From positions 1 through 37,239 of the IMG/VR virus record IMGVR_UViG_3300027770_004229: a DNA stretch of 37,239 nucleotides. One strand, 5' to 3'. Under the pieces are notes generated by a model, which was not told where the DNA came from, ran no database searches, and was given only the letters and a program-made list of their open reading frames with translations. Within the stretch, counting starts at the first letter, position 1; every line of letters starts with the position of its first letter. The position numbers and the translations under genes were made by a program. Source of the DNA: a virus. Shown in pieces: positions 6,877-33,631 of the stretch.

Positions 6877-6884
6877 TTGAAGCT

Positions 6885-6890
6885 ATTATA
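6885..6890 (-). promoter_or_regulatory. -10 box TATAAT, 8 nt before the aldolase-like ATG
   Basis: Perfect TATAAT on the minus strand, preceded by G, with eight bases to the ATG at 6876. Transcription starting 6-8 bases after the box would begin at or next to the start codon. No Shine-Dalgarno sequence lies between them. No convincing TTGACA is seen 17 bases upstream. Confidence 0.6.
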
Positions 6891-6912
6891 CAAAATTATT
6901 TCCCTATGAATG

Positions 6913-6918
6913 TATAAT
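6913..6918 (+). promoter_or_regulatory. -10 box TATAAT, 6 nt before the cupin ATG
   Basis: Perfect TATAAT preceded by G, six bases before the ATG at 6925, and divergent from the box at 6885-6890. The gap between the two start codons is only 48 bases, so both promoters are packed back-to-back and both mRNAs would be leaderless or nearly so. An alternative in-frame ATG at 6910 would lie upstream of the box. Confidence 0.6.
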
Positions 6919-6924
6919 TACAGT

Positions 6925-12448: not shown

Positions 12449-13303
12449 TTAAGAAACGGTTATTCTGCTGACAGCATAATCATTTATTAAGGCGAATCCT
12501 AACTCTTCGTAAACAACCCATCCAAGACGAAGTCTCTTTGGATCATCTGCAGGAAGAACAGTGATGTCTTGTCTTACTGGCATAGCGCCACAGAACTGAG
12601 CTGGTGCAAGAACGTAAACTGCGTTCTTAGGAACCATGGTTGAAACATGGATGTCTGCGGAATAAATATGTCCGTAGAGACCAGTCATAAGGATATCTCT
12701 TTGAGTTGCCTCGTCGAAGAATTCCTTACCCCAGTTTCTGATATCCTTGTAGCGTTGAGGATGAAGAACAACCTTAGCGCCAATCAACTCATGCTCTTCA
12801 ATCAAGGTGAGTGCAAGGTTGATATTCTCTGGTTGGAGAGTACCGGAAACTGTGATTGCTTGGTCAGTTGGAACACCAGCATTGATAACCTTAAAGACTT
12901 CAGTATCTTCTTGTCTTTGAAGGGAATCTTTAGCTCTTACTTGTGCTCTATCGACAATATAAAATCTTCTTTGTCTGATTTCATTAAGTCTGATTTGAGG
13001 ATGTGCAGCTAACTCAACTGTGGGAACGAGAAGCTCTTCAGCTTCAACCTCAGCAGCAGGAACAGCACCACGCTTAGGAATGACGTATGACTTGACAGCA
13101 ACGTCTCTCTCGTATCTTGCGAGAGCACCTTGTGGAAGCTCATCAACCATCAAGAGCTTTCTACCAATTGCTTGGTACATGAGGGAGGTCTTGATTGGCT
13201 CGACCATTGCTTGTGCAAGAGCAGTACGACCCTCTGGGGTCTCGAGAGCCATTGCAATAATGTTCTCTCTTTGCTCATTTGTATTTCTTTTAATCATTGA
13301 CAT
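12449..13303 (-). CDS. Probable major capsid protein (HK97-fold)
   Basis: This 284-residue protein is rich in beta/alpha segments typical of an HK97-like capsid protein: an N-terminal helical arm (ENIIAMALETPEGRTALAQAM), an LPQGALARYERD segment, a long helix DSLQRQEDTEVFKVINAG, a VVLHPQRYKDIRNWG block and a C-terminal WVVYEELGFALINDYAVSRI. The family assignment rests on this pattern, on position after scaffold and decoration genes, and on its more GC-balanced, C-ending codons, which suggest very high expression. The Shine-Dalgarno AAGGAG lies ten bases before the first ATG. It is the last gene of the leftward block before two terminators. The N-terminal arm is short, so no large delta domain is evident. 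Confidence 0.75.
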   Translation of the reverse strand: MSMIKRNTNEQRENIIAMALETPEGRTALAQAMVEPIKTSLMYQAIGRKLLMVDELPQGALARYERDVAVKSYVIPKRGAVPAAEVEAEELLVPTVELAAHPQIRLNEIRQRRFYIVDRAQVRAKDSLQRQEDTEVFKVINAGVPTDQAITVSGTLQPENINLALTLIEEHELIGAKVVLHPQRYKDIRNWGKEFFDEATQRDILMTGLYGHIYSADIHVSTMVPKNAVYVLAPAQFCGAMPVRQDITVLPADDPKRLRLGWVVYEELGFALINDYAVSRITVS

Positions 13304-14022: not shown

Positions 14023-15762
14023 CTAATCCTCGATTATTGGCATTGTCCAAGTACCCTTAAGAGCACCTTGGATGTCAAGAGCTGCACTGTTGTTGGTGGT
14101 TTGTCCACCACTAAATGCAGGAGATGTAGAAACACCTAAGTTTGAAGCAGTTCTGACACTACCCATTCTTTCAGCAGCAGCAGCTGCTACTCTCTCAGTT
14201 GCAGTTTGAGCAGACTTGAGCAAAAGCTTTGTTTGTCTGATCATTGAATCTGCCTTGAGATTGTCGTTGAGCATTTGCTCAGCGTACGAATCAACTTCTT
14301 CAGAGTTGATAACACCAGCAAGAGCTAATTTAGAAGCACAACTAAATGCTGTCTTAATTCTAGCTGTATCGATGGATGATACTTGAATATTTTGTTTTGC
14401 TTTTTGAGTAACAGTGTCCAAATCTCTTACTTTATTTGCAACTTCAAAAGCATCACCAGCAGTTTGAGTAGGTGGTGCCATGCTTCCTGGAGCTCCTGAG
14501 ACACCAGCTTCTGCAGTTTCATCATCATCTGTTTCGCCATGTTTATGATCATCATCCATCATAGCTTCATCATCATTGTCCATGTAAGCAACTCTAGTAG
14601 GACACTTTGAGTTTGCACAGACTGTGTTATCATCTTCCATTTCTTCTTCAGTCATTGCCATTCTTGTACCGCAAGAAGTGCATTCAACTGAATGTTTATT
14701 GGAAGTTCTTACTGTTGTTTTGTGTGGCATAGATGGCATTTGTGAAGGATAACTTACAATGTCATCTTGAGCGCCTTCAGATGGGTTCTCGACATGTTTC
14801 CAATCGACAACATACTCAAGAGTACCATCTTCCGAACCTTCAAACTTACTAGGTTTGGTAACATCTGGGAATTGTAAAGAACCTGGGTTTTTTGTTGGAA
14901 CTTTTTGTTCTGCCCAAGTTGGATTATCACCCTTTAAAGAGTTACTTCCACTATTTTCCATTTCAAATTGTGGATAATCAACTTCACCTGGCATATTAGC
15001 CATTTCGTTGTTATACTTAAATCCGGCTGACGCTGCAGGGTACACTTCTTCTTCGGAAGCGATCTTCTTGAGGATCTCTTCTCTTTCAGCTCTTCTGAGA
15101 AGAGCATCTCTCTGTGCCTTGCGCTCAGCTAATGCTTGTTTTGTCATTTTTCTAACCTCATTGCTGTTTTTATGCATATAAGTAACTTCATCATTTGACA
15201 TTTCTTCATCATCCATGTCATCATCGGACATATCATCGTCTGATACATCGTCATCATCCATGTCGTCTTCCATGTCATCTGACATATCTTCTCCGCCTAG
15301 GAGATTATCAAGCGCTTTTTGCACAGCTTGCTGCGCTGCGTCAACCATGTCAGCGGGAACTTCAATTTCAATAGTGGCGACATCATCACTTTCTTCTACT
15401 TCGTCATTGTCATCGGTTTCATCGTCATTGTCATCATTTGAATCATCATCACTCTCAAAGTGGTGAAATTCTAAATCATCTTCATTATCATCAGAACTAT
15501 CATCTGCGAAGTCAACAGTCTCTTTGCCATCTTCAAGATCAAGATTGCTCATATCAAGACCAGCTACTTTAGCAATGTTTGGAAGATATTTTGCTCTAAT
15601 CGCATGCGCTACTACAAATGATTCACTTTCATCTAAAGATGCAGTTCTAGTCATATCAGAAGCACAGTTAACAAGATCTTCTTTATCAGTTGCATTAAGT
15701 TCAGCTAATCTCATTGCAGCTAATCTGCTTTGATTCTTAGCAATGTTCGAATTTTTATTCAT
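14023..15762 (-). CDS. Acidic scaffold/core-like protein with a Cys4 cluster
   Basis: About 579 residues from the ATG at 15762; a TTG at 15804 would add 14. A long Asp/Ser-rich acidic region spans roughly residues 85-200, with repeats of (M)SDDDMDD type. A Lys/Arg-rich coiled-coil segment follows near 215-255. A CTSCG...CANSKCP cluster near 360-385 could bind zinc, and an alanine-rich helical C-terminus ends TWTMPIIED. Extreme acidity, internal coiled coil and position just upstream of decoration and capsid genes fit a scaffold or prohead core protein removed during maturation. (K/R)TAS-type motifs (TRTASLDE, VRTASNLG) are candidate cleavage points. No homologue is recognised. Confidence 0.5.
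   Translation of the reverse strand: MNKNSNIAKNQSRLAAMRLAELNATDKEDLVNCASDMTRTASLDESESFVVAHAIRAKYLPNIAKVAGLDMSNLDLEDGKETVDFADDSSDDNEDDLEFHHFESDDDSNDDNDDETDDNDEVEESDDVATIEIEVPADMVDAAQQAVQKALDNLLGGEDMSDDMEDDMDDDDVSDDDMSDDDMDDEEMSNDEVTYMHKNSNEVRKMTKQALAERKAQRDALLRRAEREEILKKIASEEEVYPAASAGFKYNNEMANMPGEVDYPQFEMENSGSNSLKGDNPTWAEQKVPTKNPGSLQFPDVTKPSKFEGSEDGTLEYVVDWKHVENPSEGAQDDIVSYPSQMPSMPHKTTVRTSNKHSVECTSCGTRMAMTEEEMEDDNTVCANSKCPTRVAYMDNDDEAMMDDDHKHGETDDDETAEAGVSGAPGSMAPPTQTAGDAFEVANKVRDLDTVTQKAKQNIQVSSIDTARIKTAFSCASKLALAGVINSEEVDSYAEQMLNDNLKADSMIRQTKLLLKSAQTATERVAAAAAERMGSVRTASNLGVSTSPAFSGGQTTNNSAALDIQGALKGTWTMPIIED
15190..15480 (-). repeat. Low-complexity Asp/Ser codon repeats in the scaffold gene
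   Basis: Two runs of GAT/GAC-rich codons, seen on the + strand as CATCATC-type repeats at about 15190-15290 and 15365-15480, encode degenerate MSDDDMDD units. Such tracts expand and contract easily. Confidence 0.7.
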
Positions 15763-15821
15763 TTTCTTTGCTGCTTCCCTTAATAAAAATTGTTCTTTTA
15801 TCAAAGTCTAATTTATAAGAT

Positions 15822-15829
15822 TATTTATA
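15822..15829 (-). promoter_or_regulatory. TATAAATA, T4-late-promoter-like box upstream of the scaffold gene
   Basis: The minus strand reads TATAAATA about 60 bases before the scaffold ATG, with a second TATAAAT ten bases downstream, right after the terminator at 15870-15911. It matches the T4 late promoter consensus, but in such AT-rich DNA a chance match is quite possible. Confidence 0.3.
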
Positions 15830-15869
15830 AACGTTTTTTGTATTCTATATATAGAGGTTTTACACCTTT

Positions 15870-15911
15870 TTCAAAACATGAGGGGAACGTAAATTCCCCT
15901 CATGTTTTGAA
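15870..15911 (-). terminator. Strong hairpin after the protease-fusion gene
   Basis: A perfect 18-base-pair inverted repeat (TTCAAAACATGAGGGGAA and its complement) around a six-base loop, starting four bases past the stop codon. It is the longest stem in the window and separates the protease-fusion gene from the scaffold gene, so it may terminate, attenuate or protect the 3' end of the upstream mRNA. Confidence 0.8.
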
Positions 15912-15914
15912 GTA

Positions 15915-18900
15915 TTAATCAATCCAAATAATGCTTACATCAAGCTTGGATGGATTTTTAGAAGATGTTCTGATAGTAGTCTTGCTGTAATTTCCGCAAG
16001 CATGGCAAAATGAGTTATTTCTAACCTTATTTACATTTCTATCACCGCATGAAGGGCAAACCATTCCAATAGGTAACATCTTCTCATTAAGCCTATTAAA
16101 ATCAGGCATTGCTGTTCTAAGATAGATGTCTGCATCAACAGTAGAAGACATCTTAATCATAGTTTTGATATTTGAAGCAGTTGTAGGTGCAGTAGCAGCT
16201 CCTAAACCTTGATCGCCCATTATATCACCAGCAGGAGCACTAATAGCTGGTGTAGCACCAGCGTCTGGTCCGTCAGTACTTTCTTGTCCTGCACCACCTG
16301 TTCCATCAGTGTCTAACTTGAGCATCATCTCAATAGTCCACCCGGAACCACACTCGTTACAGGAACCCTTACTGTCTGCTACATCAACATTATCTGATCC
16401 ACAAACTGGACATACCGAACCCCATGGTTTTTTGTTTTTACTGCCAGTTTCTGAAACACCATCTAAATCTGGGGATGCATTCATTTCATCAGCACCACCC
16501 GTCATAGCAGATAATCCTAAATCACCACCAGCAGCAGGAGCAGCACCCATTGAAGGATCAACCAAACCAGCTGGAGGTCCCTGTGGAGCTGGAGCACCCA
16601 TACCACCACCCATACCAGCACCCATTCCAGCACCCATTCCAGGTCCCATAGCGTATTTCTTGAGGACTTGTTCTCTTCTGATTTTTCTAGCCATTCTTGC
16701 TCCTTCTGTCATAAGAACAGGAGCTTCTTCTAGACTAGGTCCTTCAACAATGTCACCCATCATCTCAGGATTTTCTGTCATCTCTTCATCGACTTTAAAA
16801 GATTTGCTTACAGAAGTTGAAACAGTCGCAGTGATATCTCCATTTTGACTAACATTCAAGTCTGTAAATGAAAAAGTACCAGGGTCAACAGTAAAACCAT
16901 GTTGTTGTAAAACTTCGATAGCTTTTTGTTTGAACGCATCTTCAAAACTATCATCGCTAGGATTTACACCACCAAGATCATCTTTTGTACAAACAAATCT
17001 TAAGCACTCAGTCTTGTTTTGTGTAACAGACATAGCAGCTGTTCTTTCTGCATTTTGCTTTACTGTTATGGCTTTAGAAATAAGTTTTTCTGCTACACTG
17101 TAATCTTCGCATAATCTCTTAGCAGCTAATGCAATTTTCTTTGAACTAATGTCAAAGTTAGTAGAGTAATCAGCAAGCCAACCAATGATATTACCTTCAA
17201 TATTTTTGGTAGATGCAGTTTTGATACCCCAGAACTCTCTTCTGTTTCTTTCTCTCAATCTTGCTTCAGTAGATGTTGGAGTTTTAGCTCTGTCAATAGA
17301 AGCAATTAAGATTTTTCCATCAATGTTTTCTACTGCTGCAACAACTTCTTCAGGAGTAACTTGTTGCTCACTTGCAGACATTGCTAATCCAGAAATTACT
17401 GATCTAAGGTCGCTGCTTGAAATCAAAGTATCACTTGGATCAACAGCAGTCTTGAGTGCAGTTCTTAATTCTTCTGATCTTGAAGGTGATGCAGAAACTA
17501 ACATATCTTCAGCGGAAGCAGTATTAGCTTCTAACATGATAGATGCTAATCTTTCCACACCTTCTCTGGTGATATCACTTTCTTCAATAGCAACAGAAAG
17601 GGCATCAGCTAAATTTGAAGCAGTAATATCGACAGTTACTTCTGAACCAAGTTGTCTCAATACAGCAGCTACAGGATGTTGAGCTGATTTACTGACCTTA
17701 AAAAAGTTTGAATCTTTATTGTAACAAGCTGCAGCTCCAGCACCAATCATCTCAGCTAAATTCTTTTCAGATGATAAAATCTTTGCAAATCTAAGAATTT
17801 GATTTGGGTGTTCTTTAGCAGAAACAACTGCTTTAGCAAGAGCACTGATGGTTGCTGTCATAACTTCATGTGCAGCAGCTTTTCCGTCAACTCTACAAAC
17901 TGCAAGTTGCTTTTCAAGAACTTCAGTAGGACAACCCTTAACAACTTCATTAACTAATTCTGAAAGACCCTTAGTTACATCAGCATCATTATTTTTTCTT
18001 GAATACAAACCAGCTCTTTCAAGGAGAACATCATTTTGTTCTTCTTGTTCGCCAGTTCTCTTAGTTTCTAATTCTTCGTTTCTAGTTTTTGAAGTCTCAC
18101 CTTTGTGATGTGCTCTTAAGCTATCACCCAAAGATTTACTATCATAGCCTTCACCAGATCTAACTTCATCAAGTGATTCTTCTCTTACACCATCTCTGTG
18201 TTTTACATCCAATAAGGCGGTTTTGACAAAAGATGAGTATTCTTTGAGTAACTCTGCAGCCACTCTGGTTCCTTGACCGTTTTCCATCAAGTGAATTTGA
18301 CTTTCGTTAAGAATTGGATCCCAACCAGTTTTTTTGCCATTTGTGTAACCTGTAATAGATCCATCAGTAGAAAGAACAATTCTGTTACCTGCATTATCCT
18401 CGACCTTAAAGTCAATGGTTACTGCAGCAGCAATCTTCTTTCTTTGTTCTGATGCGATCTTTGCAAAATGATCCATTTGATTTCTGCCTCCCGCCCCATT
18501 AGGCGTGTTTGTTTTTGTGTTTTTATTTCTTTCATTAGCAACTCTAATGACTTTATCAATGCTATTTTGAATTTGTTCTGAACCAACTAAAGTATTTTTA
18601 AAGTCTAGTAAATTTTCAGTAAAATTCAAAACATTGCTTTTTCTACTAGTATTTGTACTAGCAAAAACTTCTCTTCTATCATCTTTAGATGCCCATACAA
18701 AATGAACATTTGAAGATGCTAGAGCAACTCCACTTCCAACAGCGTTATTAGGATTAGCTAATTCCATAATTCTTCCAACACTATCTGTTGGAGAATAATT
18801 TGCAAATCCTACATTTTTCATTCCAGCAGCTGGTTGAGTTTGTTGTGCGGGTTGTTGAGATTGTGGGCCAGTTGGTTGATTGATAGGCTGTGGTGATTGT

Positions 18901-20108
18901 CCACTCCCAACATCAATACCTTCGTCAATCATGTCCTGCATAGTTCCTTGCAAGTCAGCCATAGATTTTGTGATTTTTCCTACATGCGAAAGATCAACAT
19001 TATCTTTTCTCGCAAACATGTTCATGACTGCAACTTCAAGGAAATTGAGTGACAAATTAATCATGTCAAGGATATTAAGACCAGCTCTGGCATCAATACC
19101 AAGAGCTTGTAAAACTGCACCAACTGTAGAGTTTTGATTTGCTCCAGGACCTGCTAAAAGTGGACCACCAACTAGCGTTCCTGCTTGTTGAGCTAATCTA
19201 ACTGCTGTGTATGCAGTGGATTGAGCAACTCTTAAACAATTTTCATATTCATTTCTGATATTTGGTTCAGATGGAGCACCTTGGTGAGCTAAAATTATAT
19301 TTGCAGAAATTTCATTTGCTTTCTTCTCAATATTAGAAGCAGCATCTAGCACGTCATCAACGTCATAAATTTCTTGTATTTCACAAGCTTCAAAAGCACC
19401 ATCACCTACACAAGAAAGCTCTATGAACTTAACACCATAGTTTTTCTCATATGCTTTTTTGCCATTGTCAGGAAATGTCTTACCTTTATATTTTTTGAGA
19501 TGTTCGCAATAATCTTTCTCTGTGTAAGCTTTATTATTACAAATTGAACACACACCCCATTCAACACTTGCACCCATTGAAACATCGTGAATAACACCTG
19601 TTCTGATGTTTCTAGCTATATCTGGATATGCTTCCTCATCTACAAAAAAGGTACAATAAACACAGTTTTCTTTTTCGTCCCATTCAGCATAAACAACCAT
19701 ACCTTTAGCTTGTTCGATATCGTCATTCTTGTGGTTGGTGTATATTGGAACGCCTTCAAAAGTCTTGTATGTTGGAATTTTTTGACCTTTGATTTCTTGC
19801 TCTTTCAGCAATTCTTCTTTGGAAAACAAGTCACCATTAGCATTAACTACATCTGCGTCAATAGCTCTAGCTCTTACCCATAAAAGTTTTGCACCTTTAC
19901 GAGCTTGCATCTCTTTCACAATGTCAAAATCTTTGTATTTTTCAAGTACTTCTTTAGGATCTGCATATAGTGATTGCAAGCCAATTTTTGCTGCTTCTTT
20001 CATGTTAACAGAAGCAGTTTTTATAATGTGGTCTCTTGCTATATTTCGGTCATTTTCACTGAGAAAACTATCAAATGTGATAGCTCCTCCTTTTGCAACC
20101 TTGTACAT
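15915..20108 (-). CDS. Giant prohead-protease-like protein with scaffold region and C-terminal zinc ribbons
   Basis: 1397 residues. Residues 70-250 resemble a prohead serine protease: RARAIDADVVNANGD near 79-93, VPIYTNHKND with histidine 126, and VIHDVSMGASVEW with serines 177 and 181, then ISL-like FIELSCVGDGAF near 228-239. A CxxC...CxH cluster (187-203) is inserted after the serine. The middle (about 260-1100) is long, helical and alanine/lysine-rich, plausibly scaffold. Near 1170-1195 is a Gly/Met/Pro low-complexity tract, followed by two zinc ribbons: CPVCGSDN...CNECG (about 1231-1257) and CPSCGDRN...CHACG (about 1348-1371). AAGGAT lies eight bases before the ATG. Typical prohead proteases have 170-250 residues, so this is an exceptional fusion. 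Protease assignment is by motif and position. Confidence 0.6.
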   Translation of the reverse strand: MYKVAKGGAITFDSFLSENDRNIARDHIIKTASVNMKEAAKIGLQSLYADPKEVLEKYKDFDIVKEMQARKGAKLLWVRARAIDADVVNANGDLFSKEELLKEQEIKGQKIPTYKTFEGVPIYTNHKNDDIEQAKGMVVYAEWDEKENCVYCTFFVDEEAYPDIARNIRTGVIHDVSMGASVEWGVCSICNNKAYTEKDYCEHLKKYKGKTFPDNGKKAYEKNYGVKFIELSCVGDGAFEACEIQEIYDVDDVLDAASNIEKKANEISANIILAHQGAPSEPNIRNEYENCLRVAQSTAYTAVRLAQQAGTLVGGPLLAGPGANQNSTVGAVLQALGIDARAGLNILDMINLSLNFLEVAVMNMFARKDNVDLSHVGKITKSMADLQGTMQDMIDEGIDVGSGQSPQPINQPTGPQSQQPAQQTQPAAGMKNVGFANYSPTDSVGRIMELANPNNAVGSGVALASSNVHFVWASKDDRREVFASTNTSRKSNVLNFTENLLDFKNTLVGSEQIQNSIDKVIRVANERNKNTKTNTPNGAGGRNQMDHFAKIASEQRKKIAAAVTIDFKVEDNAGNRIVLSTDGSITGYTNGKKTGWDPILNESQIHLMENGQGTRVAAELLKEYSSFVKTALLDVKHRDGVREESLDEVRSGEGYDSKSLGDSLRAHHKGETSKTRNEELETKRTGEQEEQNDVLLERAGLYSRKNNDADVTKGLSELVNEVVKGCPTEVLEKQLAVCRVDGKAAAHEVMTATISALAKAVVSAKEHPNQILRFAKILSSEKNLAEMIGAGAAACYNKDSNFFKVSKSAQHPVAAVLRQLGSEVTVDITASNLADALSVAIEESDITREGVERLASIMLEANTASAEDMLVSASPSRSEELRTALKTAVDPSDTLISSSDLRSVISGLAMSASEQQVTPEEVVAAVENIDGKILIASIDRAKTPTSTEARLRERNRREFWGIKTASTKNIEGNIIGWLADYSTNFDISSKKIALAAKRLCEDYSVAEKLISKAITVKQNAERTAAMSVTQNKTECLRFVCTKDDLGGVNPSDDSFEDAFKQKAIEVLQQHGFTVDPGTFSFTDLNVSQNGDITATVSTSVSKSFKVDEEMTENPEMMGDIVEGPSLEEAPVLMTEGARMARKIRREQVLKKYAMGPGMGAGMGAGMGGGMGAPAPQGPPAGLVDPSMGAAPAAGGDLGLSAMTGGADEMNASPDLDGVSETGSKNKKPWGSVCPVCGSDNVDVADSKGSCNECGSGWTIEMMLKLDTDGTGGAGQESTDGPDAGATPAISAPAGDIMGDQGLGAATAPTTASNIKTMIKMSSTVDADIYLRTAMPDFNRLNEKMLPIGMVCPSCGDRNVNKVRNNSFCHACGNYSKTTIRTSSKNPSKLDVSIIWID
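16573..16655 (-). repeat. Gly-Met-Gly-Ala coding repeat
   Basis: A run of CCCAT(A/T)CC-type units on the + strand encodes four degenerate GMGAGMGG units in the protease-fusion protein. It marks a flexible linker before the zinc ribbons. Confidence 0.65.
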
Positions 20109-20182
20109 ATATATTATCCTTAGAGTTAAAGTTACTAATTGTTTCTGTTCTATTTAAAAGCTGTATAGTCCTTTAAAATTCT

Positions 20183-20206
20183 AAACCCGTCGATTTCGAC
20201 GGGTTT
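20183..20206 (-). terminator. Intrinsic terminator after the portal gene
   Basis: A perfect ten-base-pair stem (AAACCCGTCG / CGACGGGTTT) with an ATTT loop, in the 125-base gap between the portal stop and the protease-fusion start. On the minus strand the stem ends in TTT followed by AGAATTTT. Confidence 0.75.
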
Positions 20207-20233
20207 ATTGTACATACAATACACCTATTTACA

Positions 20234-22585
20234 TTATAAGTATTCTTCACCTGAATCCGAAACTCCTGATCTTCGCTTAATAGCTTTAACTAAGACACCT
20301 AAGCAATCTTGTGGGTGATCTTGAAGTTCCTTATCTGTAAATCTAATTATAATCCAACCACTTGAAGCCAATTCAGAATCTCTTCTCTTATCCTTGGAAA
20401 TTTTTTCTTGGTTGTTATGCCAAATCTCACCGTCAGCTTCAATACCAATCTTGAGATGAGGTATAGCTGCATCAAGTTGGTAGTCAAAAGTTGGTCCAGC
20501 AGAATATTGTGCATAAAGTGGATATGGCATATTCACAGACATAACTAATGAGTAAAGTTTCTTCTCAAGGTTTGTGAACATTTTTGATTGAGGTCTTTCA
20601 GCTTTTTTAGCAACGACAGTCCTCACATATTCATTTTCACTTGATAAAGCAAGTCTTAATTCTTCTTGTGCTTCAAAATTCATAGGTAATGAATTTTGAC
20701 CACCAAATAATGGTGTTCTCAAGACTCCGTATAAACCATCATATTCTTCTGCAAGAGGTCCTAAAAATGCTCTTCCAGTCACAGGTTGCATTGATTGTAA
20801 GAAACCTTCATGAGCTGCAGACTTAATTCTTTTAGAAGCTATTCTAGTGTTATCTTTAGAAATTTTTTCTTCAATTCTCTCTTTGTATATTTCATTAGAT
20901 ATTGAAGAAGCTAACTTGTACATCTTGTTTCTTTCAGCAGCAGTTGGTGCTGGAGGAGAACCTCCAGGAGGAGCTCCAGCAGGAGAAGCACCCATGTCAG
21001 GTGGCATTGGAGGAGCCATTCCTCCTAAACCAGCGTCACCACCAGTAAATCCTTGACCAGTGACAGGTCCGCTAGAAAAGTTTAGTGAAAAATTTGGATT
21101 TCCAAAATTCTGATCATTGATAAAATTCGCACCCTGTTCAAATCTAAGCCTTTCAATTTCTTGATCAGAATCAAAACCAAAAGCTTCTATAAGTGAAACA
21201 TTTGAAATAACACCATTTTGATTTGCAGTAACGAGCATTTGCAATTTACCAGTGTCATCTCTGAGTTGAAGATCATCGAATTTAATTTTTGGATAAACTA
21301 ATTCGTCTTGTCCTCTTTCTCCCTCAACTACAAAACCATTCCATTCTGCTACTAGTTTGAAAATATTATTTTCTATCCAGTGAGCTATTTCTCTTCTGAA
21401 TGTTTCTAATCTTTGAGCCATAGCAAGAAGACCAACTTGAGCATTACCGTAAGTTGGACCCTCACCATTAAGAAGAGCCTTATTAAGCATAACACCATCT
21501 AAAATTTCTTGTTCAATTAGTTCAAACTCACCAGTAAGAGGATGAATTTTACCTGTTGCTCCATACCATTCCATATCAAAGTTATGGTGAGTAACAAGCG
21601 TTAAGTTTGGATCATTTGCAATAGATGCTAATTCATCTTGAACATTGTCAATATCTTCTTGAGATGCTGGTCTTACATCACTACCGATCTTAACAACTTT
21701 GATTGGAAGTATTAAACGGTCAGCAATCATAAACTGTGCCTGACGAAGTTTATCTTTGTATGTCAAAATTGGGAACAATGGTCTGATCATAGAAACTCCA
21801 TAATCTTCCCATGAGTTCGAACCATATTTAAAATGATAAATTGAAATTGGGCTTAGTTTGATAGGCTCATTCCTCATAATCATTTTTTTAACTTCATTAG
21901 GAATCATATTGTAAATTTCTTTTGGATGTCTTTCATTTACAACACGAACTTCTTCTGCTGACGGTCTATAAGCATAAGTTCCAGGAGTATCAATCATTCC
22001 AGATGATTTTATTACATTATCTGGATTTAAAATAGTAATAGATTTCCATGTAGCTCCATCATGACTACACTCTTCATTCTTCTTTTCATCCCAGTTAGTA
22101 CCATGACAATGTGCACAATCAATAGAAAGAAGAGGAAAACAGTCACCTAATAAGTGATATGTTTTAGAAATTTCAGGAAGCCATTTTTGAAAATTAAGAT
22201 TTTCAACTAATTTTTCAAAATAGTCTTTTACATATGCCGAAGAGCATTCTAATTTCCAACCAGAAAATGGATAGTTGGTGTAAAAATTGATAGCTGCAGC
22301 AACTTTAGGCTCATTGTTTCTCCACCAGTTTGCCCAGAGATATACTTCTCGTCTGGCATTTGGAATTTGAAATGAAGATGGAGTAAGAAAAGGTGAGTAA
22401 AAGTTTGGTGCAGTTGTAATTGTATTTACACCCGCAGTTCTTACAGATGGGCCTAAACCCAATCCTATTCTACTGTTTGCGTAACTTCTTTTTACATCAT
22501 CCCCACTACTTGATTTTGACCCTTCACCTGTTACTTGATGTGCTGAAGTTCTAATAGCGGAGGCAAGAGAAATTTTATTTGCCAT
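20234..22585 (-). CDS. Portal protein with C-terminal Vsr/DUF559-like endonuclease domain
   Basis: 783 residues from the ATG at 22585. Residues about 65-500 look like a phage portal: an N-terminal segment YLWANWWRNNEPKVAAAINF, a clip/stem region with ISIYHFKYG, KLRQAQFMIADRLI, and a long helix LNKALLNGEGPTYGN...AMAQRLETFRREIAHWIE. An inserted CAHCH...CSH cluster (about 157-175) may bind zinc. A Pro/Gly-rich linker follows. The last ~85 residues read TFDYQLDAAIPHLKIGIEADG, EIWHNN, DKRRDSELASSGW and IIRFTDKEL, the pattern of DUF559/Vsr-like PD-(D/E)XK nucleases, with candidate catalytic residues D701, E716 and D718. A TATAAT seven bases upstream and the lack of a Shine-Dalgarno support this start over one 15 codons earlier. 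Confidence 0.82.
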   Translation of the reverse strand: MANKISLASAIRTSAHQVTGEGSKSSSGDDVKRSYANSRIGLGLGPSVRTAGVNTITTAPNFYSPFLTPSSFQIPNARREVYLWANWWRNNEPKVAAAINFYTNYPFSGWKLECSSAYVKDYFEKLVENLNFQKWLPEISKTYHLLGDCFPLLSIDCAHCHGTNWDEKKNEECSHDGATWKSITILNPDNVIKSSGMIDTPGTYAYRPSAEEVRVVNERHPKEIYNMIPNEVKKMIMRNEPIKLSPISIYHFKYGSNSWEDYGVSMIRPLFPILTYKDKLRQAQFMIADRLILPIKVVKIGSDVRPASQEDIDNVQDELASIANDPNLTLVTHHNFDMEWYGATGKIHPLTGEFELIEQEILDGVMLNKALLNGEGPTYGNAQVGLLAMAQRLETFRREIAHWIENNIFKLVAEWNGFVVEGERGQDELVYPKIKFDDLQLRDDTGKLQMLVTANQNGVISNVSLIEAFGFDSDQEIERLRFEQGANFINDQNFGNPNFSLNFSSGPVTGQGFTGGDAGLGGMAPPMPPDMGASPAGAPPGGSPPAPTAAERNKMYKLASSISNEIYKERIEEKISKDNTRIASKRIKSAAHEGFLQSMQPVTGRAFLGPLAEEYDGLYGVLRTPLFGGQNSLPMNFEAQEELRLALSSENEYVRTVVAKKAERPQSKMFTNLEKKLYSLVMSVNMPYPLYAQYSAGPTFDYQLDAAIPHLKIGIEADGEIWHNNQEKISKDKRRDSELASSGWIIIRFTDKELQDHPQDCLGVLVKAIKRRSGVSDSGEEYL

Positions 22586-22592
22586 GTGATAT

Positions 22593-22598
22593 ATTATA
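22593..22598 (-). promoter_or_regulatory. -10 box TATAAT, 7 nt before the portal ATG
   Basis: Perfect TATAAT preceded by GGG, seven bases before the ATG at 22585. It overlaps the stop region of the upstream 117-residue gene, so the portal may have its own leaderless transcript inside the virion operon. Confidence 0.5.
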
Positions 22599-22947
22599 CC
22601 CAGGTTTGATTCGAGGGAACATTTTGCCAAAACATAGGAGCTCCCTTACCTGATTTTGCTCTGGTGTATCCTTCACCATTATAAAAAAATTGGGAGCCAC
22701 TGCCTCTTTCTTTTGTAGACATATTAACATCCACATCGTCTTCATCTCTAATTTGAGCTAATTGACCCTCTAAATTTTCAGATGGCTCAGTAGAATACTC
22801 TTCAATATTGTCCGATGAATTATTTACAATAGAAACTTTTTTAGGGTTCAGTACTTGCAAGGTTTCTGGAGCTAGCACAAAGATTTGATCATCATTTTGC
22901 TGCATAGCTCCTCCTCCAAAACTTGCTTTGACGACTCTATACCACAT
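22594..22947 (-). CDS. Hypothetical small module protein
   Basis: 117 residues, no recognised family. The N-terminus WYRVVKASFGGGAMQQ resembles the Lys/Arg-x-Ala-(S/Q)-aromatic-Gly-rich openings of neighbouring proteins, and the remainder is acidic and probably disordered, ending in QFFYNGEGY and MFWQNVPSNQTWV. It lies directly upstream of the portal gene, so a head-assembly role is plausible. Its C-terminal codons overlap the portal -10 box. It starts one base after the upstream gene ends. Confidence 0.5.
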   Translation of the reverse strand: MWYRVVKASFGGGAMQQNDDQIFVLAPETLQVLNPKKVSIVNNSSDNIEEYSTEPSENLEGQLAQIRDEDDVDVNMSTKERGSGSQFFYNGEGYTRAKSGKGAPMFWQNVPSNQTWV

Positions 22948-22948
22948 A

Positions 22949-24580
22949 TTAATCTTCTCTAAGTTCTTCTAGAGAATAATCAAGCCCTAATTCGTGAGCA
23001 AAATTTTTCAAATCATCATCTGAATATTGATGCCCCCAATCTTCTTTACTGTCTGAAAGGAGTTGTTCTATAGTTTTATCAGTATATTTCTTATTAGTTC
23101 TTTTGGACTCTAACTGTTCATCTCTGAGAATATCAATAACATTTTTCTTTCTATTGTCATCAAGAATCTGCTCTTGATTTTTTTCAACTTTGCTTGCTGC
23201 TTTATTGAGATGTTGAGAGACTGACATATCATCACCATCTCCAGCATTTTTGTTGATTTCTTCAATAATGTGTAAAGGATTAGATTTCTTATTCAAAAGT
23301 TGTTCTGCATAAGATTCTTCCATTTCACCACGATGACCCATCATTCCAGCATCTTCTAAAAGATCTTCCCTTACATGTTCAGTATCAGAAGAATCATTAT
23401 TTAGTTTTCTTAAAAGTTCTTCTAAGTAAGAAGTTCCTTTTTGATCTTTTCTTTCTGGAGCGAGTTGATCATTAATTACTTTAGTATGATCAGACTGTGC
23501 TTGTTTAGGTCTTTTGACTGGTTTATCATCTTGTTGATGACCCCATTTGGTAGCTTTGTTGTCAGATAATTGTGTCTCAATTGAATCTTCATAATTAGAT
23601 TTATTTCTAACTTTGTTTGCACCTTGAGTGCTTTGTTCGAATCTAGCTTCATAACCGATTTCACCTTCGGTTAATTTCTTAGATCTTTCACCTTCTTTTA
23701 ATTCAAGAGCATTAGCTTCGTTATCTGGATGAATATGAACATCAAGTCTTGCCATAACTTCATCGTTAGTTTGGAATGCAACTTTCAACCAATCTTGATA
23801 TCCACAACTAACCACTCCATCTTTGTCTAATCTGCTATCAATGCAGTTATTTACGCACTTTGAAATCTCCATAGGTACAGGAGATTTATAACCTTGGAAT
23901 TTTCCTTTCGGGCAAAGTAGAAAAGGTTCATTAGTTTGAGTAGATAAAGTAGTATAGGCAACTCTTCTATTTTCTTTAGGGGTAATGTAAGAATAGCAAT
24001 CATGAATATATTTTGCTACTTTGTTAATTTTTTGTTCATCACCAGAAAGCACATATTTTCTAGCTGTTTTCAAAGAAGCAATCTTGATATTCTGATCAGC
24101 AAAATTCATTAAATTGTCAATGCTTTTCAATGCTTCAAGTTGCCAATGTCCAGATGATTTATCATGATTCTTATATGCTAATCTTTCAAATTTTGCAGCA
24201 GTATTATTTTTGTCAATAAAATTTTGCAAAGCCATATAAGAATATCTTAGGACATTTCTTTGACTTGCTGTTTTGATAGCAATGAATCTATTTTGAAGAT
24301 TTGCTAATTTAGTAATTCTTTCTTCAGGGGAACACTTAAGAATTTTTCCTAAATTTTCAGGACCACCAGAATTCATAAAATCAATGACAATAGGATGTTT
24401 CATATCAAAATTTGAACGATCCATATCTTCTAATGGATTGGATACAAATGAATGTTTACCTTTTGCATCTTTTAAAAGGTCTGCGATAACGTCAACTATA
24501 CTATCTCCACCTAAAACATTTTTAATATCTTTAGTGTCATGACTAGTATAATTTGTTTCGATTTTGTATCCGTTTTCCAT
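22949..24580 (-). CDS. Hypothetical packaging/virion-module protein with Cys cluster and repeats
   Basis: 543 residues, mostly helical and hydrophilic, no known family. Visible: IKTASQRN near 102-109 and LKTARKY near 173 (the recurrent motif of this module). A cysteine cluster follows in FLLCPKGKF...SKCVNNCIDS...VVSCGYQDW (about 220-270) that could bind metal. The C-terminal half is acidic, with two copies of an IE(T/Q)xLSDxKxxxWGHQ motif, one near 335-355 and one near 500-520. The ATG is just after the preceding TAA. Likely virion or packaging-associated by location only. Confidence 0.5.
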   Translation of the reverse strand: MENGYKIETNYTSHDTKDIKNVLGGDSIVDVIADLLKDAKGKHSFVSNPLEDMDRSNFDMKHPIVIDFMNSGGPENLGKILKCSPEERITKLANLQNRFIAIKTASQRNVLRYSYMALQNFIDKNNTAAKFERLAYKNHDKSSGHWQLEALKSIDNLMNFADQNIKIASLKTARKYVLSGDEQKINKVAKYIHDCYSYITPKENRRVAYTTLSTQTNEPFLLCPKGKFQGYKSPVPMEISKCVNNCIDSRLDKDGVVSCGYQDWLKVAFQTNDEVMARLDVHIHPDNEANALELKEGERSKKLTEGEIGYEARFEQSTQGANKVRNKSNYEDSIETQLSDNKATKWGHQQDDKPVKRPKQAQSDHTKVINDQLAPERKDQKGTSYLEELLRKLNNDSSDTEHVREDLLEDAGMMGHRGEMEESYAEQLLNKKSNPLHIIEEINKNAGDGDDMSVSQHLNKAASKVEKNQEQILDDNRKKNVIDILRDEQLESKRTNKKYTDKTIEQLLSDSKEDWGHQYSDDDLKNFAHELGLDYSLEELRED

Positions 24581-24581
24581 A

Positions 24582-25520
24582 TTAATTGCCTAATCCCAAC
24601 ATTGATAGTTCTTCTTTGTCAAACCCTCTATCTACCAATGCACTTTTGATTTGTTTAAGTTCTTCAGTAACACCCTTTTTGCTTACAGGGTCTTTAAAAT
24701 CACCTTGTTTGGTGTTTTTACTATAATCTTGTAAATCTAAAAGATAACATACTCTAGCTACAAGTTCACCTGTTGATCTTTTCATAAAGTCAGGTTTTCT
24801 GTCATAATCTAGAGCTGCAGTTTTTGTGCTTTTACCTTTAGATGCTAAATCTTTTAATTGTTCTACTGTTTTCTTTACCTGTTCGTTTTTTTCTTGTAAT
24901 TCTTCAAGATCAACACTTTCAGCAGTTTTTTCATTGTCGTCTTTTTTGGTTTTTTGCTTTCTGTTGTAATCTTGAACAATTTCAACTGCTTTTTGAATCA
25001 TTGGTTTTTCCCAATAATTAAGTTTTGCAATAGTTCTTACAATGTCACTTTTTTCAACACCATGATCAAGCAATTTACCAACTTTACCCATCAAAACACG
25101 AAATGGATTGCCTCTAGTTTTCTTTTTCTTCTGTTGTACTTTTTGTGATTGTCTGAAATTGTACACTGCTTTGACCTCTGCTAAAAATTCTCTTTCTATT
25201 TTCTCAGCATATTCAATATGATTTGGATCATACTCTCCGGTTTGTGGATCTTTTGTTTTTTTCTTAGGATCACTTGCCATTTGAGTAGTATCAGATAAAT
25301 GATAAAGTTTTCTTTGCAAATCCTTACTTTGAACACCATCAGCAAGAGTGGTGATTTTGTCAGTCAAATTTTGAGGATTATTGCTTGACTTTACTTCTTC
25401 AAGCAATTTCTTTGCATCCTTTTTGCTAACTCCATCATCTTCATTTCCTGTAAGAGGAATATTACTTGGACCACCTGGGGCTGATGCTGCTGGCATTTCA
25501 AAATTGGAATATTTTTTCAT
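24582..25520 (-). CDS. Hypothetical helical module protein
   Basis: 312 residues, strongly charged and helical, no known family. A basic stretch with QKVQQKKKKTRGNP lies near the middle, followed by a helical FRVLMGKVGKLLDHGVEKSDIV. A coiled-coil-like LEELQEKNEQVKKTVEQL comes later, together with EKTAES and TKTAALD motifs. The start overlaps the upstream stop by one base (TAATG). It could bind nucleic acid through the basic stretch, but nothing proves it. Confidence 0.48.
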   Translation of the reverse strand: MKKYSNFEMPAASAPGGPSNIPLTGNEDDGVSKKDAKKLLEEVKSSNNPQNLTDKITTLADGVQSKDLQRKLYHLSDTTQMASDPKKKTKDPQTGEYDPNHIEYAEKIEREFLAEVKAVYNFRQSQKVQQKKKKTRGNPFRVLMGKVGKLLDHGVEKSDIVRTIAKLNYWEKPMIQKAVEIVQDYNRKQKTKKDDNEKTAESVDLEELQEKNEQVKKTVEQLKDLASKGKSTKTAALDYDRKPDFMKRSTGELVARVCYLLDLQDYSKNTKQGDFKDPVSKKGVTEELKQIKSALVDRGFDKEELSMLGLGN

Positions 25521-26332
25521 TAGTCTATATCAAAATCTAAATCAATATTTTTATAAATATCTGAAACTTTTTGTGCTCTGTTTTGAGATTTTGTCTCAAA
25601 ATCATCTGCAATATTTTTCTTAATTGCTAATCTTGATTCTCTAGATTTGTTTTGCATAGCTACTCTTTGAGCTTCTCTTGCATCTAAAGCTTCTGGATCA
25701 ATCATGCCAAAATGCGATGTATGCTCTAAATCATTAGAAGTTCTGAGAATATTGTGTGCTCTATTGTTTACAACTTGCGATTTTCTCAAGTTGTTCATCT
25801 GCTTTTCTTCCCAGCTTTGATGTCTAGATGCTTGAGCTTCTCTTCTTTTCTGTATTTCAACAACTGATTGCTCACTGTTGGAAGATTGACTATTTAGGAA
25901 TTCTTCAGAAATTGCAATCATATCAGGGCTAAAAATGGTTGCGGAGCCTCTAAGCATACAATCCATATATTCATCAGCTGAATATGCTTTTAAACCACTA
26001 GTAGTAGTTCTTGCATTAGTACCTTCATCGGTTCCATAATCAGCTCTTTTTATAGCACTTAATTCTTGAGAAAGAATTCTGTCTGCAATGCTTTCACCCC
26101 TGTAGTCTTGGTACATTGAAGCTCCAGAAATTTTTTCCCAGGATTTTTCGAAATTAGAAGCTTCTTTCTTTAAACCAATTGTTTCTTTTGAGATTTTAAA
26201 TTGATTGTCTGCAGAGTTTTTTCTTAACTCGGCGTAAGGATCTTCTTCGATATTAACTTGAGATCCAACAAATCTCTTTTCAATGAAACTTGGGATATTT
26301 TCTGTTTCGTTTACTTTCTTAAATCTACTCAT
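25520..26332 (-). CDS. Hypothetical module protein
   Basis: 270 residues, hydrophilic, rich in Glu, Lys, Arg, Gln and Ser, predicted largely helical, no recognised family. The C-terminal half contains arginine/glutamine-rich helices (QKRREAQASRHQSWEEKQ, then DAREAQRVAMQNKSRESRL) that could form a coiled coil. It contains KKEASNFEK, a variant of the module's recurrent motif. CAGGAT precedes the ATG by about six bases. It follows a strong hairpin (26360-26387), so it begins a new transcript segment or is processed. Confidence 0.48.
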   Translation of the reverse strand: MSRFKKVNETENIPSFIEKRFVGSQVNIEEDPYAELRKNSADNQFKISKETIGLKKEASNFEKSWEKISGASMYQDYRGESIADRILSQELSAIKRADYGTDEGTNARTTTSGLKAYSADEYMDCMLRGSATIFSPDMIAISEEFLNSQSSNSEQSVVEIQKRREAQASRHQSWEEKQMNNLRKSQVVNNRAHNILRTSNDLEHTSHFGMIDPEALDAREAQRVAMQNKSRESRLAIKKNIADDFETKSQNRAQKVSDIYKNIDLDFDID

Positions 26333-26359
26333 ATTTTTATCCTGGTATTACTCTAAGAT

Positions 26360-26387
26360 TTGTCCCAGGAGTAAACTCCTGGGACAA
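26360..26387 (-). terminator. Intrinsic terminator after the 368-residue Cys-repeat gene
   Basis: A perfect 12-base-pair stem (TTGTCCCAGGAG / CTCCTGGGACAA) with a TAAA loop, 15 bases downstream of the stop codon at 26402. The T-tract on the minus strand is weak, so it may also act as an mRNA-stabilising hairpin. Confidence 0.7.
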
Positions 26388-26401
26388 TAATTCTTGAGGA
26401 A

Positions 26402-27508
26402 TTATTTATCGTATTTTTTTGTAAAGAGTGCATCGATCCACTCTTGGTCACCGTAACCTAACTCATTCTTCCAGTAATCAACTAATCTGGAATAGTCAGA
26501 ATCAGTAAGGGTTGCAACTTTAATCATTGAAGAAACAGCTGCTTTCTTGACATTCCCATTAAGTTCAGAAGCCATTACATTCTTGATTTCTTTCAAACCA
26601 TTAGATGCAATAGTTTCATTACCTAACATAGCGTCAATGTATTCTTGTGGAAAACCTTCAGCTAATGCTTTTGCTGCAAATGCTTGCTTTGCTGAACTTG
26701 ACAATTGGTTTGCTTTCTTCATTGCGTTGTCAGTTTTTGCATATCCTGCTTCTTTACTAGCAGAACAATTACAACTGTCACCAGCATAATTTTTGCCACA
26801 GCTTTCGCATTTCTTGTTCATTGCTTTTTTGCTAGCAGAACAATCACAGCTGTCACCAGCATATTTTTTGCCACAGCTTTTACATTCCTTATTCATTGCT
26901 TCAGCTTTTTCAGCAATCTTGATAAGTTGTTCTCTGTATGCTTTTCTTTGTGCAAGTTTAACATTTTTTTCATTCTGAGTATTAATTTCAGATTGAATTT
27001 TTCCAGCAAGTCTTACTCTTCTTTCGTGTCTTGCAGCTAAAATGGTATTTGCTAATGCTTTATCACCAGATGCTAAAGCAGCTTCAACAGCTTCAGCACT
27101 CAATTGTGAAGGATGGTTAAAAACGACAGAAGCTTTTCTTGTTTTTGATTTAGGACTTTTTCTGACCATATCTTCATGATCATCATCTTCATCACACTCA
27201 CATTCTGCTTTACCACAATCTGAGCAAACATCTTCTTCTTCATCCATATCATCAGCAGCATCTTGTTTTTTCTCAACATGCTTTCTTAATTGTTTAGGAA
27301 CGTCAGAAAGATTTTTAGTATCTTCTTTTGATGGTTTTTTCTTATCGCCAAGTTCTTGAAGCATCTTTTTGGTTTCATCATCCATTTTTTTAGGTGCTTT
27401 TGCTTTGGCTAATCTTTCATTAAAGTTGTCCCAGTCAATACCTTGAAAAACAAGGTCAGAATCAAGAGCTTCTTCTTGAATTCTGTTTGGGAAAATTCTA
27501 TCTGCCAT
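26402..27508 (-). CDS. Hypothetical module protein with tandem Cys-rich repeats
   Basis: 368 residues, no known family. An acidic region near residues 86-115 contains CSDCGKAECECDEDDD. A pair of near-identical 25-residue repeats follows (about 200-250): AMNKECKSCGKKYAGDSCDC and AMNKKCESCGKNYAGDSCNC, each with a C-x2-C-x8-C-x-C pattern suited to zinc or iron binding. The C-terminus (ATLTDSDYSRLVDYWKNELGYG) looks like a small folded helical domain. (K/R)xA(S/A) motifs occur (RKASVVFNH, KKAAVSSM). GAGGAG precedes the ATG by 11 bases. Role in capsid assembly or packaging inferred from position only. Confidence 0.52.
   Translation of the reverse strand: MADRIFPNRIQEEALDSDLVFQGIDWDNFNERLAKAKAPKKMDDETKKMLQELGDKKKPSKEDTKNLSDVPKQLRKHVEKKQDAADDMDEEEDVCSDCGKAECECDEDDDHEDMVRKSPKSKTRKASVVFNHPSQLSAEAVEAALASGDKALANTILAARHERRVRLAGKIQSEINTQNEKNVKLAQRKAYREQLIKIAEKAEAMNKECKSCGKKYAGDSCDCSASKKAMNKKCESCGKNYAGDSCNCSASKEAGYAKTDNAMKKANQLSSSAKQAFAAKALAEGFPQEYIDAMLGNETIASNGLKEIKNVMASELNGNVKKAAVSSMIKVATLTDSDYSRLVDYWKNELGYGDQEWIDALFTKKYDK
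26761..26910 (-). repeat. 75-bp tandem duplication encoding Cys-rich units
   Basis: Two adjacent 75-base units, in phase (matching CAGAACAAT points at 26761 and 26836), encode the two 25-residue C-x2-C-x8-C-x-C repeats. DNA identity is high, indicating a recent in-frame duplication. Confidence 0.8.
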
Positions 27509-29997: not shown

Positions 29998-32109
29998 TTA
30001 TCTTCTGTTTAAATTAACCATTTTGGATCTTGGTAATCTTTTCATAATTTTATTTGTTAAACATTCATAAGCAACAGCAGCTACAGCATCACATATATCA
30101 TCTTTATATCCAGACAATGCTTCTATGTAGTATCTTTTGCCTTTCCATTTCTTTTGTAAAAATAAAAATTGTATTTTTGCTTCTTGAATTTCATTCAAAG
30201 AGACAAGTTTGTTATCATAATCAAAATATGTCCCTCCAGATAAATCATAAATATCAACACGGTCATCTCTAACAAGTTGAGATAATTCTGTGTAAATCCT
30301 TTCTTTGTACTCTTTATTGAATTGTCTTTCTACAATAGGAACACCATGCGACTGCAATTTGATAAGAGATGATTGTGAATTCCATTGGTCGATTGAAACT
30401 TGTTTAAATCTAAATTTTCTGTGTAAATCTATAACATATTCCTCAACATCTTTTTCTTTTACTGGTTGATTTTTTGTCATAGGATTCCAATAATGAATGT
30501 GATCAATAACAACTCTTTTCAGAGGTTTGAAATCAGGACCTACAGTGCCATACATATTTTCGGTATGAGCTACCACAAGTGCATAATAATCTGAGGTTCT
30601 TGCAGGATCTAAATGGCAGAAATAATCAAAAAATCCAGAAGCAAATTCTTTTCTTTTGACCATAGACATACTCTTGAACATTCTGTCAATGTCGTCTTGT
30701 ACAAACATAGGATCTGAGGATGATGCACCAAATTCCGCACCATATTGCATTTGATATTCAACTGGATTTTTTCTTTTTTGATCATCTAACCAGGCTTTAT
30801 CAATATTTGGATTTGTTAGCCAAGTTGGAAGTTTCATCACAAGAGTGTTTTGATCTTCTAATCTATTTTCATGTAAGTCATATAAAAGACCAATAGGTCC
30901 TTTAGGGTTAGAAAGAAGCATCATCTTTCCATCTTTACCAAAAGTTGCAAGAGATGGCTTTAGATCATCATAAAGAGCATAGTCAACACCAGAATCAGGA
31001 TTATCTCCTGCCATAGCTGCAACTTCGTCCATAATGATTGTCCAACAAGTTAGACCAACAAGACCAGATGCATTACTAGAACCACATCTAAGAACTAAAC
31101 TACCTGAAAATTGATTAAGACTTTGCTCAGACCTTCTTTCATTTTCTTTTCTGTCATGTTCAGTGTAAAACCGCATTTCTAATTCTGTATCTTTACCAAT
31201 ATAAGGAGCAAAGAATGGAGAAGCAAGAACTGTTTGTTTAATTTTAGAGAAGATTGCCTTTTTAGCTTGCTCTTCATTTCTAGCAACATTAAGTAAAACT
31301 ATTTCATCAAATTCCATCAATCCGTATCTAGATTGCGGATGTCCCATGGCAATTAATCTATATAGTTCGTAAAGTGCCATTACAGACACTAAAAAGGATT
31401 TTCCAGATCTTCTTCCAAGTACTAAAACAAGTTCTTGAAATTTGTATTTATTTTCACATTTATCTAAAACTTGCATTCTTAATTTTGGATCAAATTCTTC
31501 TGAATTAATTAAATCAAGTTCAGATTGAAAACAATCAATAATTGGTCTCTGTTCTAAAGTAACAACTTGTCTTTCTGAATCAGGGTTAGTAGCTTCATCT
31601 TTTGCAGCTTGATATCTTGATTTCTTTATTTCGTTGTCTTGTCTTTTGCATTGTAAGCAAGGAGAGTTAACAATACTGAATGTTGTTTTAAATTGCTTAC
31701 CTTCTTTATAATTTTTGTGAAAAACTTTTTCATTATCATGAATATATTTCCAAACACATCCATCACAGTCAGTTTCATTTACTGTGTCCTCAATTTTAAG
31801 GTTTGTATTGCCTTCTTGTCCCATATAAAAACACTTAAGAATAAGTTTTTGCCATGGATAAGGTCTTAAATTACAAAAATAAGGATGTTCTATAAATGTA
31901 ACAATATCAACAATTTGATCTGGATTAAATCTTGTTTTTTCTGGAAGTGAAGGAGGAGCGACTTCTGCTCTAGTTGATGGTAGAATTTCATCCAAAAACT
32001 CTGAAGCATATCCTGAATCTTTTAAAAAATCAGTAACAGAATTTGCTTGCTGTAATAATTGGTTTTTTAAATCAAGCTGAGATTGCTTCGCCGTATTTGG
32101 TTTTCTCAT
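29998..32109 (-). CDS. terL: Terminase large subunit
   Basis: 703 residues. The N-terminal ATPase has Walker A GRRSGKS (232-238), Walker B TIIMDEV (357-363, D361-E362) and the coupling motif LLSNPKG (398-404). The C-terminal RNase H-like nuclease has D501 (HLDPARTSDYYAL), D574 (QVSIDQWNSQ) and the D670/D671/D674 cluster (GYKDDICDAV). An insertion with CDGC (115-118) and CLQC (151-154) forms a four-cysteine, zinc-ribbon-like site before the ATPase core, which is unusual. The chain is longer than common terminases (about 420-620 residues). It couples ATP hydrolysis to DNA packaging at the portal and cuts genome ends. Its ATG overlaps the upstream gene stop by one base. Confidence 0.93.
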   Translation of the reverse strand: MRKPNTAKQSQLDLKNQLLQQANSVTDFLKDSGYASEFLDEILPSTRAEVAPPSLPEKTRFNPDQIVDIVTFIEHPYFCNLRPYPWQKLILKCFYMGQEGNTNLKIEDTVNETDCDGCVWKYIHDNEKVFHKNYKEGKQFKTTFSIVNSPCLQCKRQDNEIKKSRYQAAKDEATNPDSERQVVTLEQRPIIDCFQSELDLINSEEFDPKLRMQVLDKCENKYKFQELVLVLGRRSGKSFLVSVMALYELYRLIAMGHPQSRYGLMEFDEIVLLNVARNEEQAKKAIFSKIKQTVLASPFFAPYIGKDTELEMRFYTEHDRKENERRSEQSLNQFSGSLVLRCGSSNASGLVGLTCWTIIMDEVAAMAGDNPDSGVDYALYDDLKPSLATFGKDGKMMLLSNPKGPIGLLYDLHENRLEDQNTLVMKLPTWLTNPNIDKAWLDDQKRKNPVEYQMQYGAEFGASSSDPMFVQDDIDRMFKSMSMVKRKEFASGFFDYFCHLDPARTSDYYALVVAHTENMYGTVGPDFKPLKRVVIDHIHYWNPMTKNQPVKEKDVEEYVIDLHRKFRFKQVSIDQWNSQSSLIKLQSHGVPIVERQFNKEYKERIYTELSQLVRDDRVDIYDLSGGTYFDYDNKLVSLNEIQEAKIQFLFLQKKWKGKRYYIEALSGYKDDICDAVAAVAYECLTNKIMKRLPRSKMVNLNRR

Positions 32110-33571: not shown

Positions 33572-33597
33572 TATATTTTCTCCCCTTAAAAGAAAAT

Positions 33598-33631
33598 AAC
33601 CCCTAGACACAGTTGTATTGTCTTAAGGGTT
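33598..33631 (-). terminator. Imperfect hairpin between sigma gene and the 237-residue gene
   Basis: On the minus strand AACCCTTAAGACA pairs imperfectly with TGTCTAGGGGTT, followed by ATTTTCTTTT. It could end the replication/sigma transcript or attenuate the next gene. One bulge makes it uncertain. Confidence 0.4.

Follow-up and report, generated by a model that had tools for sequence, protein, structure and literature searches.

A DUF559/Vsr-type nuclease domain fused to the portal protein throughout a clade of uncultured jumbo phages

Portals are treated as passive rings or valves, and the cutting of DNA is seen as the task of the terminase and accessory enzymes. In this work, we are analysing a gene which raises the question whether the DNA gate can itself be an enzyme and, if so, on which DNA it would act. 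The window is a 37-kb virus record, that is, the whole stretch of 37,239 nt of IMGVR_UViG_3300027770_004229. A preliminary description of it had read positions 20234-22585 of the minus strand as a portal protein extended by a C-terminal nuclease domain; the open reading frame lies exactly there, and all four motifs quoted for it are present. The features on which the analysis draws are the following.

20234..22585, minus strand: 783-aa portal protein ending in a fused nuclease domain (start codon ATG at 22585, stop at 20234)
21113..22372, minus strand: portal body, residues 72-491, clip/stem/wing and crown (AlphaFold model, Portal_Mu, phrog_16240)
20591..21112, minus strand: Pro/Gly-rich linker and poorly modelled intermediate region, residues 492-665 (pLDDT, dN/dS)
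20267..20584, minus strand: DUF559/Vsr-type PD-(D/E)XK nuclease domain, residues 668-773 (Pfam, fold match)
20342..20566, minus strand: active-site span E674, D705, E716, D718, G719, H723, D732, R735, D736, W744, R748 (residue conservation)
12449..13303, minus strand: major head protein (phrog_2522, 2.6e-68; 48% identical to phage G gp27 by tblastn)
15915..20108, minus strand: head-maturation-protease-like protein, 1397 aa (phrog_18299, 2e-20, residues 82-241)
29998..32109, minus strand: terminase large subunit, TerL (phrog_2, 8e-27; acidic nuclease residues D501, D574, D670 and D674 intact)

The gene thus sits among those of the terminase, head protease and major head protein, and its product is a portal by several measures. 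The first two thirds of the protein match portal families in PHROGs, including phrog_16240 (1.5e-35), and the body exceeds the Pfam cut-off of Portal_Mu (30.2 bits against 23.9). In a full-length AlphaFold model built from 30 diverse members (a monomer of moderate confidence, mean pLDDT 65), residues 72-491 matched many solved portals with Z of 15-18 (VIA structural alignment), among them 11bp (Z 17.9) and T4 gp20, 3ja7 (Z 15.0, rmsd 6.0 over 297 residues, model 76-491 aligned to gp20 70-512). The standard portal body that had been claimed is therefore borne out by family and by fold. Within the body, portal residues 157-175 (about 22061-22117, minus strand) hold a CxxC...CxH cluster, C157, C160, C173 and H175, which is nearly invariant in 30 diverse members and may be a zinc site. 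Elsewhere in the window, positions 1121-10878 form a sugar or cell-surface biosynthesis block with two DegT/DnrJ aminotransferases, a dTDP-sugar epimerase, a PfkB kinase, an NTP-transferase and a shikimate-dehydrogenase-like domain.

The isolated last 127 aa scored over the cut-offs of Pfam DUF559 (35.1 bits, cut-off 20.6) and of REase_MTES_1575 (41.1 bits, curated cut-off 38.2). A separate AlphaFold model of the tail, covering residues 545-783 and built from 17 family members (mean pLDDT 66, and about 70-89 in the nuclease), matched the putative endonuclease 3hrl (Z 11.1, rmsd 1.9, 93 residues), the catalytic domain of I-Bth0305I, 3r3p (Z 10.7), and Vsr, 1cw0 (Z 8.8), with FASTKD4 also among the fold matches. 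The predicted fold is hence PD-(D/E)XK of the Vsr kind, in agreement with the proposed domain type and not the unlike fold that would have spoken against it. A sequence profile run against the PDB gave just two matches, I-Bth0305I as the nearest (8.2e-06) and 3hrl, and the matches of the nuclease in PADLOC and PHROGs include homing endonucleases. The cut-off of the Vsr family NCBIfam TIGR00632 was missed (21.8 bits against 97.85), so the portal nuclease has a related fold and is not a Vsr. The T4 gp4 family, phrog_218, was absent from the PHROGs matches of both the portal and its tail.

The layout of the tail required some correction. A C-terminal nuclease behind a Pro/Gly linker is confirmed, though the domain is somewhat longer than the roughly 85 residues first given (about 668-773), and between linker and nuclease roughly 100 further residues (about 561-665) are conserved, which had been overlooked. 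The pLDDT is below 50 over most of residues 486-623, and the gap between body and nuclease ranges from 92 to 194 aa across relatives, with a linker variable in both length and sequence. Altogether, the 783-aa protein is almost certainly a true portal with a PD-(D/E)XK domain of the DUF559/Vsr/I-Bth0305I type, joined to the crown end by a flexible linker. This architecture is new as a combination of two known kinds, a portal and a DUF559 nuclease, and not as a new kind of protein.

The D/E/D core pointed out previously corresponds to D705, E716 and D718, and the other residues of the family accompany it. The residues of the active-site span are invariant in 43 close relatives; among 30 diverse members, E674, D705, E716, D718, G719, H723, D732, R735, D736, G743, W744 and R748 do not vary, and this is the active-site set of the DUF559 family. 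The residue set from D705 to R748 was found in 100% of 59 members, and the active site is intact even where nuclease identity drops to 24%. In the wider set the motif reads E716-x-[D/E]718, with E replacing D718 in two members. In seven close pairs, dN/dS was 0.02-0.05 for the nuclease, 0.02-0.06 for the body and 0.10-0.21 for the linker region. Selection constrains the nuclease domain no less than the body, and there is essentially no variation in the catalytic residues of the domain. A dead domain is ruled out by the invariant active site together with the low dN/dS; strong purifying selection on the active site implies that the portal tail is very probably a catalytically active nuclease, as judged from its conservation.

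Two relatives carry an intein within the nuclease, recognised by Pfam Intein_splicing and LAGLIDADG matches.

4642-9000 of L297: intein-bearing portal
5755-10230 of L315: intein-bearing portal

In both, the intein is placed directly after E716, and the spliced product would read ECDG. Inteins tend toward conserved sites of important proteins, so an intein inside the catalytic motif gives an independent hint that this site matters. More generally, of the 79 distinct complete portal ORFs, 20 are longer than 870 aa; the ones that were read have inteins at sites in the body.

A first scan for relatives, with the whole protein as query, returned 47. Since that query contained the nuclease, three further scans were made with the portal body alone (alignments A4, A5 and A7), in which every complete portal ORF carried the domain, bar one contig met three times (L042, L103, L242). 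Fused nucleases were called at profile E under 1e-3, and a few ORFs without the strict motif were judged by eye. Deduplication left 87 distinct portals, of which 79 are complete at the 3' end, and the same tail is fused in 78 of these, with its acidic residues conserved; all members come from metagenomic, uncultured viral contigs, on records of up to 548 kb. Recurrence of the same single-gene fusion on separate contigs rules out an assembly error or two joined genes. In the exception, IMGVR_UViG_3300012000_000088, a single TGA interrupts the Pro/Gly linker and the nuclease continues in frame downstream; this may be a natural split, read-through or a sequencing error. Recoding of TGA is unsupported, as no other gene at that locus clearly needs read-through.

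Across the set, identity falls to 37% in the body and 24% in the nuclease, and the distances of the two parts are strongly correlated (Mantel r 0.919, a value reached in none of 2000 permutations). Body and nuclease have diverged together, and the fusion has been passed on as part of the portal across a large jumbo-phage clade. DUF559 was searched for in the records of 14 relatives, and in 13 of them it matched nothing but the portal tail. One 476-kb record holds a second DUF559 domain, apart from the portal, in a 303-aa ORF (G011:C1:222737-222967).

Outside the clade the combination was not met. A search of 50,697 deposited phage records gave no match spanning 80% of the 783-aa protein; with the nuclease alone as query, the matches were helicases, homing enzymes and hypothetical proteins, and no annotated portal was among them. 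The nearest portals in deposited phages, those of phage G, LR745208, Tunturi_5 and Rctr197k, are without the domain, and DUF559 was found nowhere in the four records, so such portals do not generally require the domain. A plasmid search gave unrelated DUF559 proteins and remote portals only. In genome contigs, a single-protein query gave no relative, and a profile query then gave one: the same portal-nuclease in a 1.36-Mb contig of an Armatimonadetes MAG (JAFDWS010000002.1; L333, G016:C5). In sampled stretches of this contig GC is 0.53-0.55 up to 465 kb, and from 600 kb it is 0.61 with bacterial genes; the contig is either a half-megabase prophage or a chimera, and it is the sole host hint for the clade. 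The fusion is also undescribed in the literature searched, whose coverage was limited and included few subscription journals. The remark that this is no standard portal architecture is thus upheld for deposited phages and for the literature searched.

Where the nuclease would stand in the virion can be judged from portal homology. In T4, SPP1 and P22 no part of the portal lies further inside than the crown, which in T4 comprises residues 451-524 (PMC4493910). When the full-length model is compared with T4 gp20, the body is complete through the crown before the nuclease begins; attached after the crown, the nuclease would be expected in the head interior and at a distance from the terminase, a location we regard as probable. 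TerL keeps its own acidic nuclease residues, which are conserved in relatives as well, so the portal domain is no substitute for the terminase cut, and its replacing a defective terminase nuclease is ruled out. Both the internal crown and the intact TerL residues leave the suggested trimming of genome ends beside the terminase less supported than before.

To our knowledge, a cutting activity of the portal is not recognised in any studied phage. Our preferred reading, held tentatively and at slightly less than even likelihood, is that of a housekeeping nuclease at the portal vertex, which by analogy with T4 would process phage DNA in packaging or head completion. As portal homology suggests, some twelve copies in each virion would hang from the crown and surround the inner opening of the DNA channel; they would cut irregular phage DNA arriving there in packaging or head completion, such as branches, flaps and unprocessed ends. 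Regular packaged duplex would be spared because the enzyme, like Vsr, would act on structure or sequence and not on any DNA. It is nearly an even matter, again just short of it, whether packaging, head completion or ejection depends on the cutting of phage DNA by the nuclease ring at the inner mouth. Fast turnover between relatives is usual for effector domains, and never-lost inheritance of one nuclease family fits a housekeeping role in the virion better than an effector; we put housekeeping processing rather than an ejected effector at about even. The proposed role would be akin to that of two T4 vertex enzymes, namely gp4, a REase-fold nuclease of head completion needed for packaging (PMC7824862), and endonuclease VII, which binds the portal gp20 (PMC3012670; PMC10893049). 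No match to the gp4 family was found in ten large records of the clade by a search that detected T4 and that distant gp4 relatives would escape. Several points count against a packaging role: TerL has its own nuclease, phage G-type portals manage without the domain, and branches stalled outside at the terminase are not easily within reach of an enzyme tethered to the crown in the head interior.

The portal might instead bring the nuclease into the head as cargo, to be freed by the prohead protease at sites in the linker region and to leave with the DNA, attacking the host chromosome, plasmids, rival phages or nucleic-acid-based defence. This is possible but rather unlikely in our view. Fusions of portal/MuF proteins to 2H, Nudix and ART domains have been read as injected (PMC9503650), and in the window the protease-like gene adjoins the portal gene. 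Three candidate sites, speculative and defined by motif, lie in the linker region.

20813..20917, minus strand: candidate protease sites YKLAS 556-560, RIAS 581-584 and KSAA 588-591

The motif [KR]xA[SAG] occurs 5 times in the portal against 0.5 expected and 6 times against 0.5 in 14023-15804. Its variant [KR][TILVFYS]A[SAG] is several-fold enriched in the structural proteins of 14023-27508 and 32858-33610 (minus strand), and is absent from TerL and the major head protein. All 31 window-like portals have Y[KR]xA[SA] in the linker region; however, it is missing in all 47 distant ones that keep the nuclease, for which reason prohead-protease cleavage was rejected as a general release mechanism. 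That a motif of this type is a prohead-protease site freeing the domain is a guess, as it also occurs inside the folded portal body (NEPKVAA). The prohead protease of SPN3US does cleave the portal, but what is cut off there is a propeptide at the N-terminus, and propeptides are not normally retained in the head (PMC10052503). The retention of one nuclease family throughout the clade is likewise not what the usual turnover of effector domains would give.

The remaining readings appear less plausible. A branch-resolving enzyme tethered to the portal, standing in for the phage Holliday-junction resolvase in packaging, would parallel the portal-bound endonuclease VII of T4. The ten large fusion-bearing records were searched for RuvC, endonuclease VII and RusA: RuvC is absent in all ten, while phage G, without the fusion, has it, and endonuclease VII was found in one. 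RusA-like matches in four of the ten, two of them over the cut-off, weaken the idea of replacement, and the inward-facing crown speaks against it too, so that we regard such a stand-in as clearly unlikely. A module that grips DNA at the inner mouth and holds or pilots its end, with the nuclease activity unused, would agree with a DNA-binding fold predicted at that place, and the Vsr-like fold is used outside DNA cleavage as well, since FASTKD4 is a Vsr-like protein regulating an mRNA (PMC11879112). Pure binding would not need E674, D705, E716, D718 and H723, yet all are kept in the most diverged members, and we judge this reading slightly less credible still. As to the leftover of a homing endonuclease fused by accident, the nearest solved structure by sequence is an intron enzyme, homing endonucleases are among the database matches, and the portals of this clade are also intein targets. 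Nevertheless, no intron or intein boundary was found around the domain, and vertical inheritance with the portal and universal retention are unlike homing elements, which makes such an origin very improbable.

The conserved fusion points to a DNA gate that doubles as an enzyme in a large group of uncultured giant phages. A nuclease fixed to the portal and kept clade-wide would mean either vertex DNA cutting of an undescribed kind or a nuclease delivered with the genome, and it raises the question how about a dozen nucleases can sit beside the packed genome and the genome not be destroyed.

Several known systems share parts of this arrangement. Bacillus phage G, the nearest deposited relative, has a homologous portal body (gp14), as do LR745208, Tunturi_5 and Rctr197k, and its portal also ends in a Pro/Gly-rich C-terminal tail, but DUF559 is lacking in all four. 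Nucleases of the DUF559/Vsr/I-Bth0305I (EDxHD) group have the same fold and conserved residues as the portal tail; the known members are stand-alone enzymes of restriction or repair, homing enzymes or helicase fusions, whereas here the domain belongs to a capsid portal. The portal/MuF fusions, polyvalent proteins, likewise place an enzyme domain on a portal or head protein, although the enzymes are others and are interpreted as injected; in the present clade a single nuclease family is fixed. In T4, gp4 is also a REase-fold head nuclease required in packaging, but it is a separate protein of a TnsA-like branch and not a fused DUF559 domain. Endonuclease VII on gp20 similarly puts a DNA-cutting enzyme at the portal, in that case encoded by its own gene, of unrelated fold, and bound to the portal rather than fused with it.
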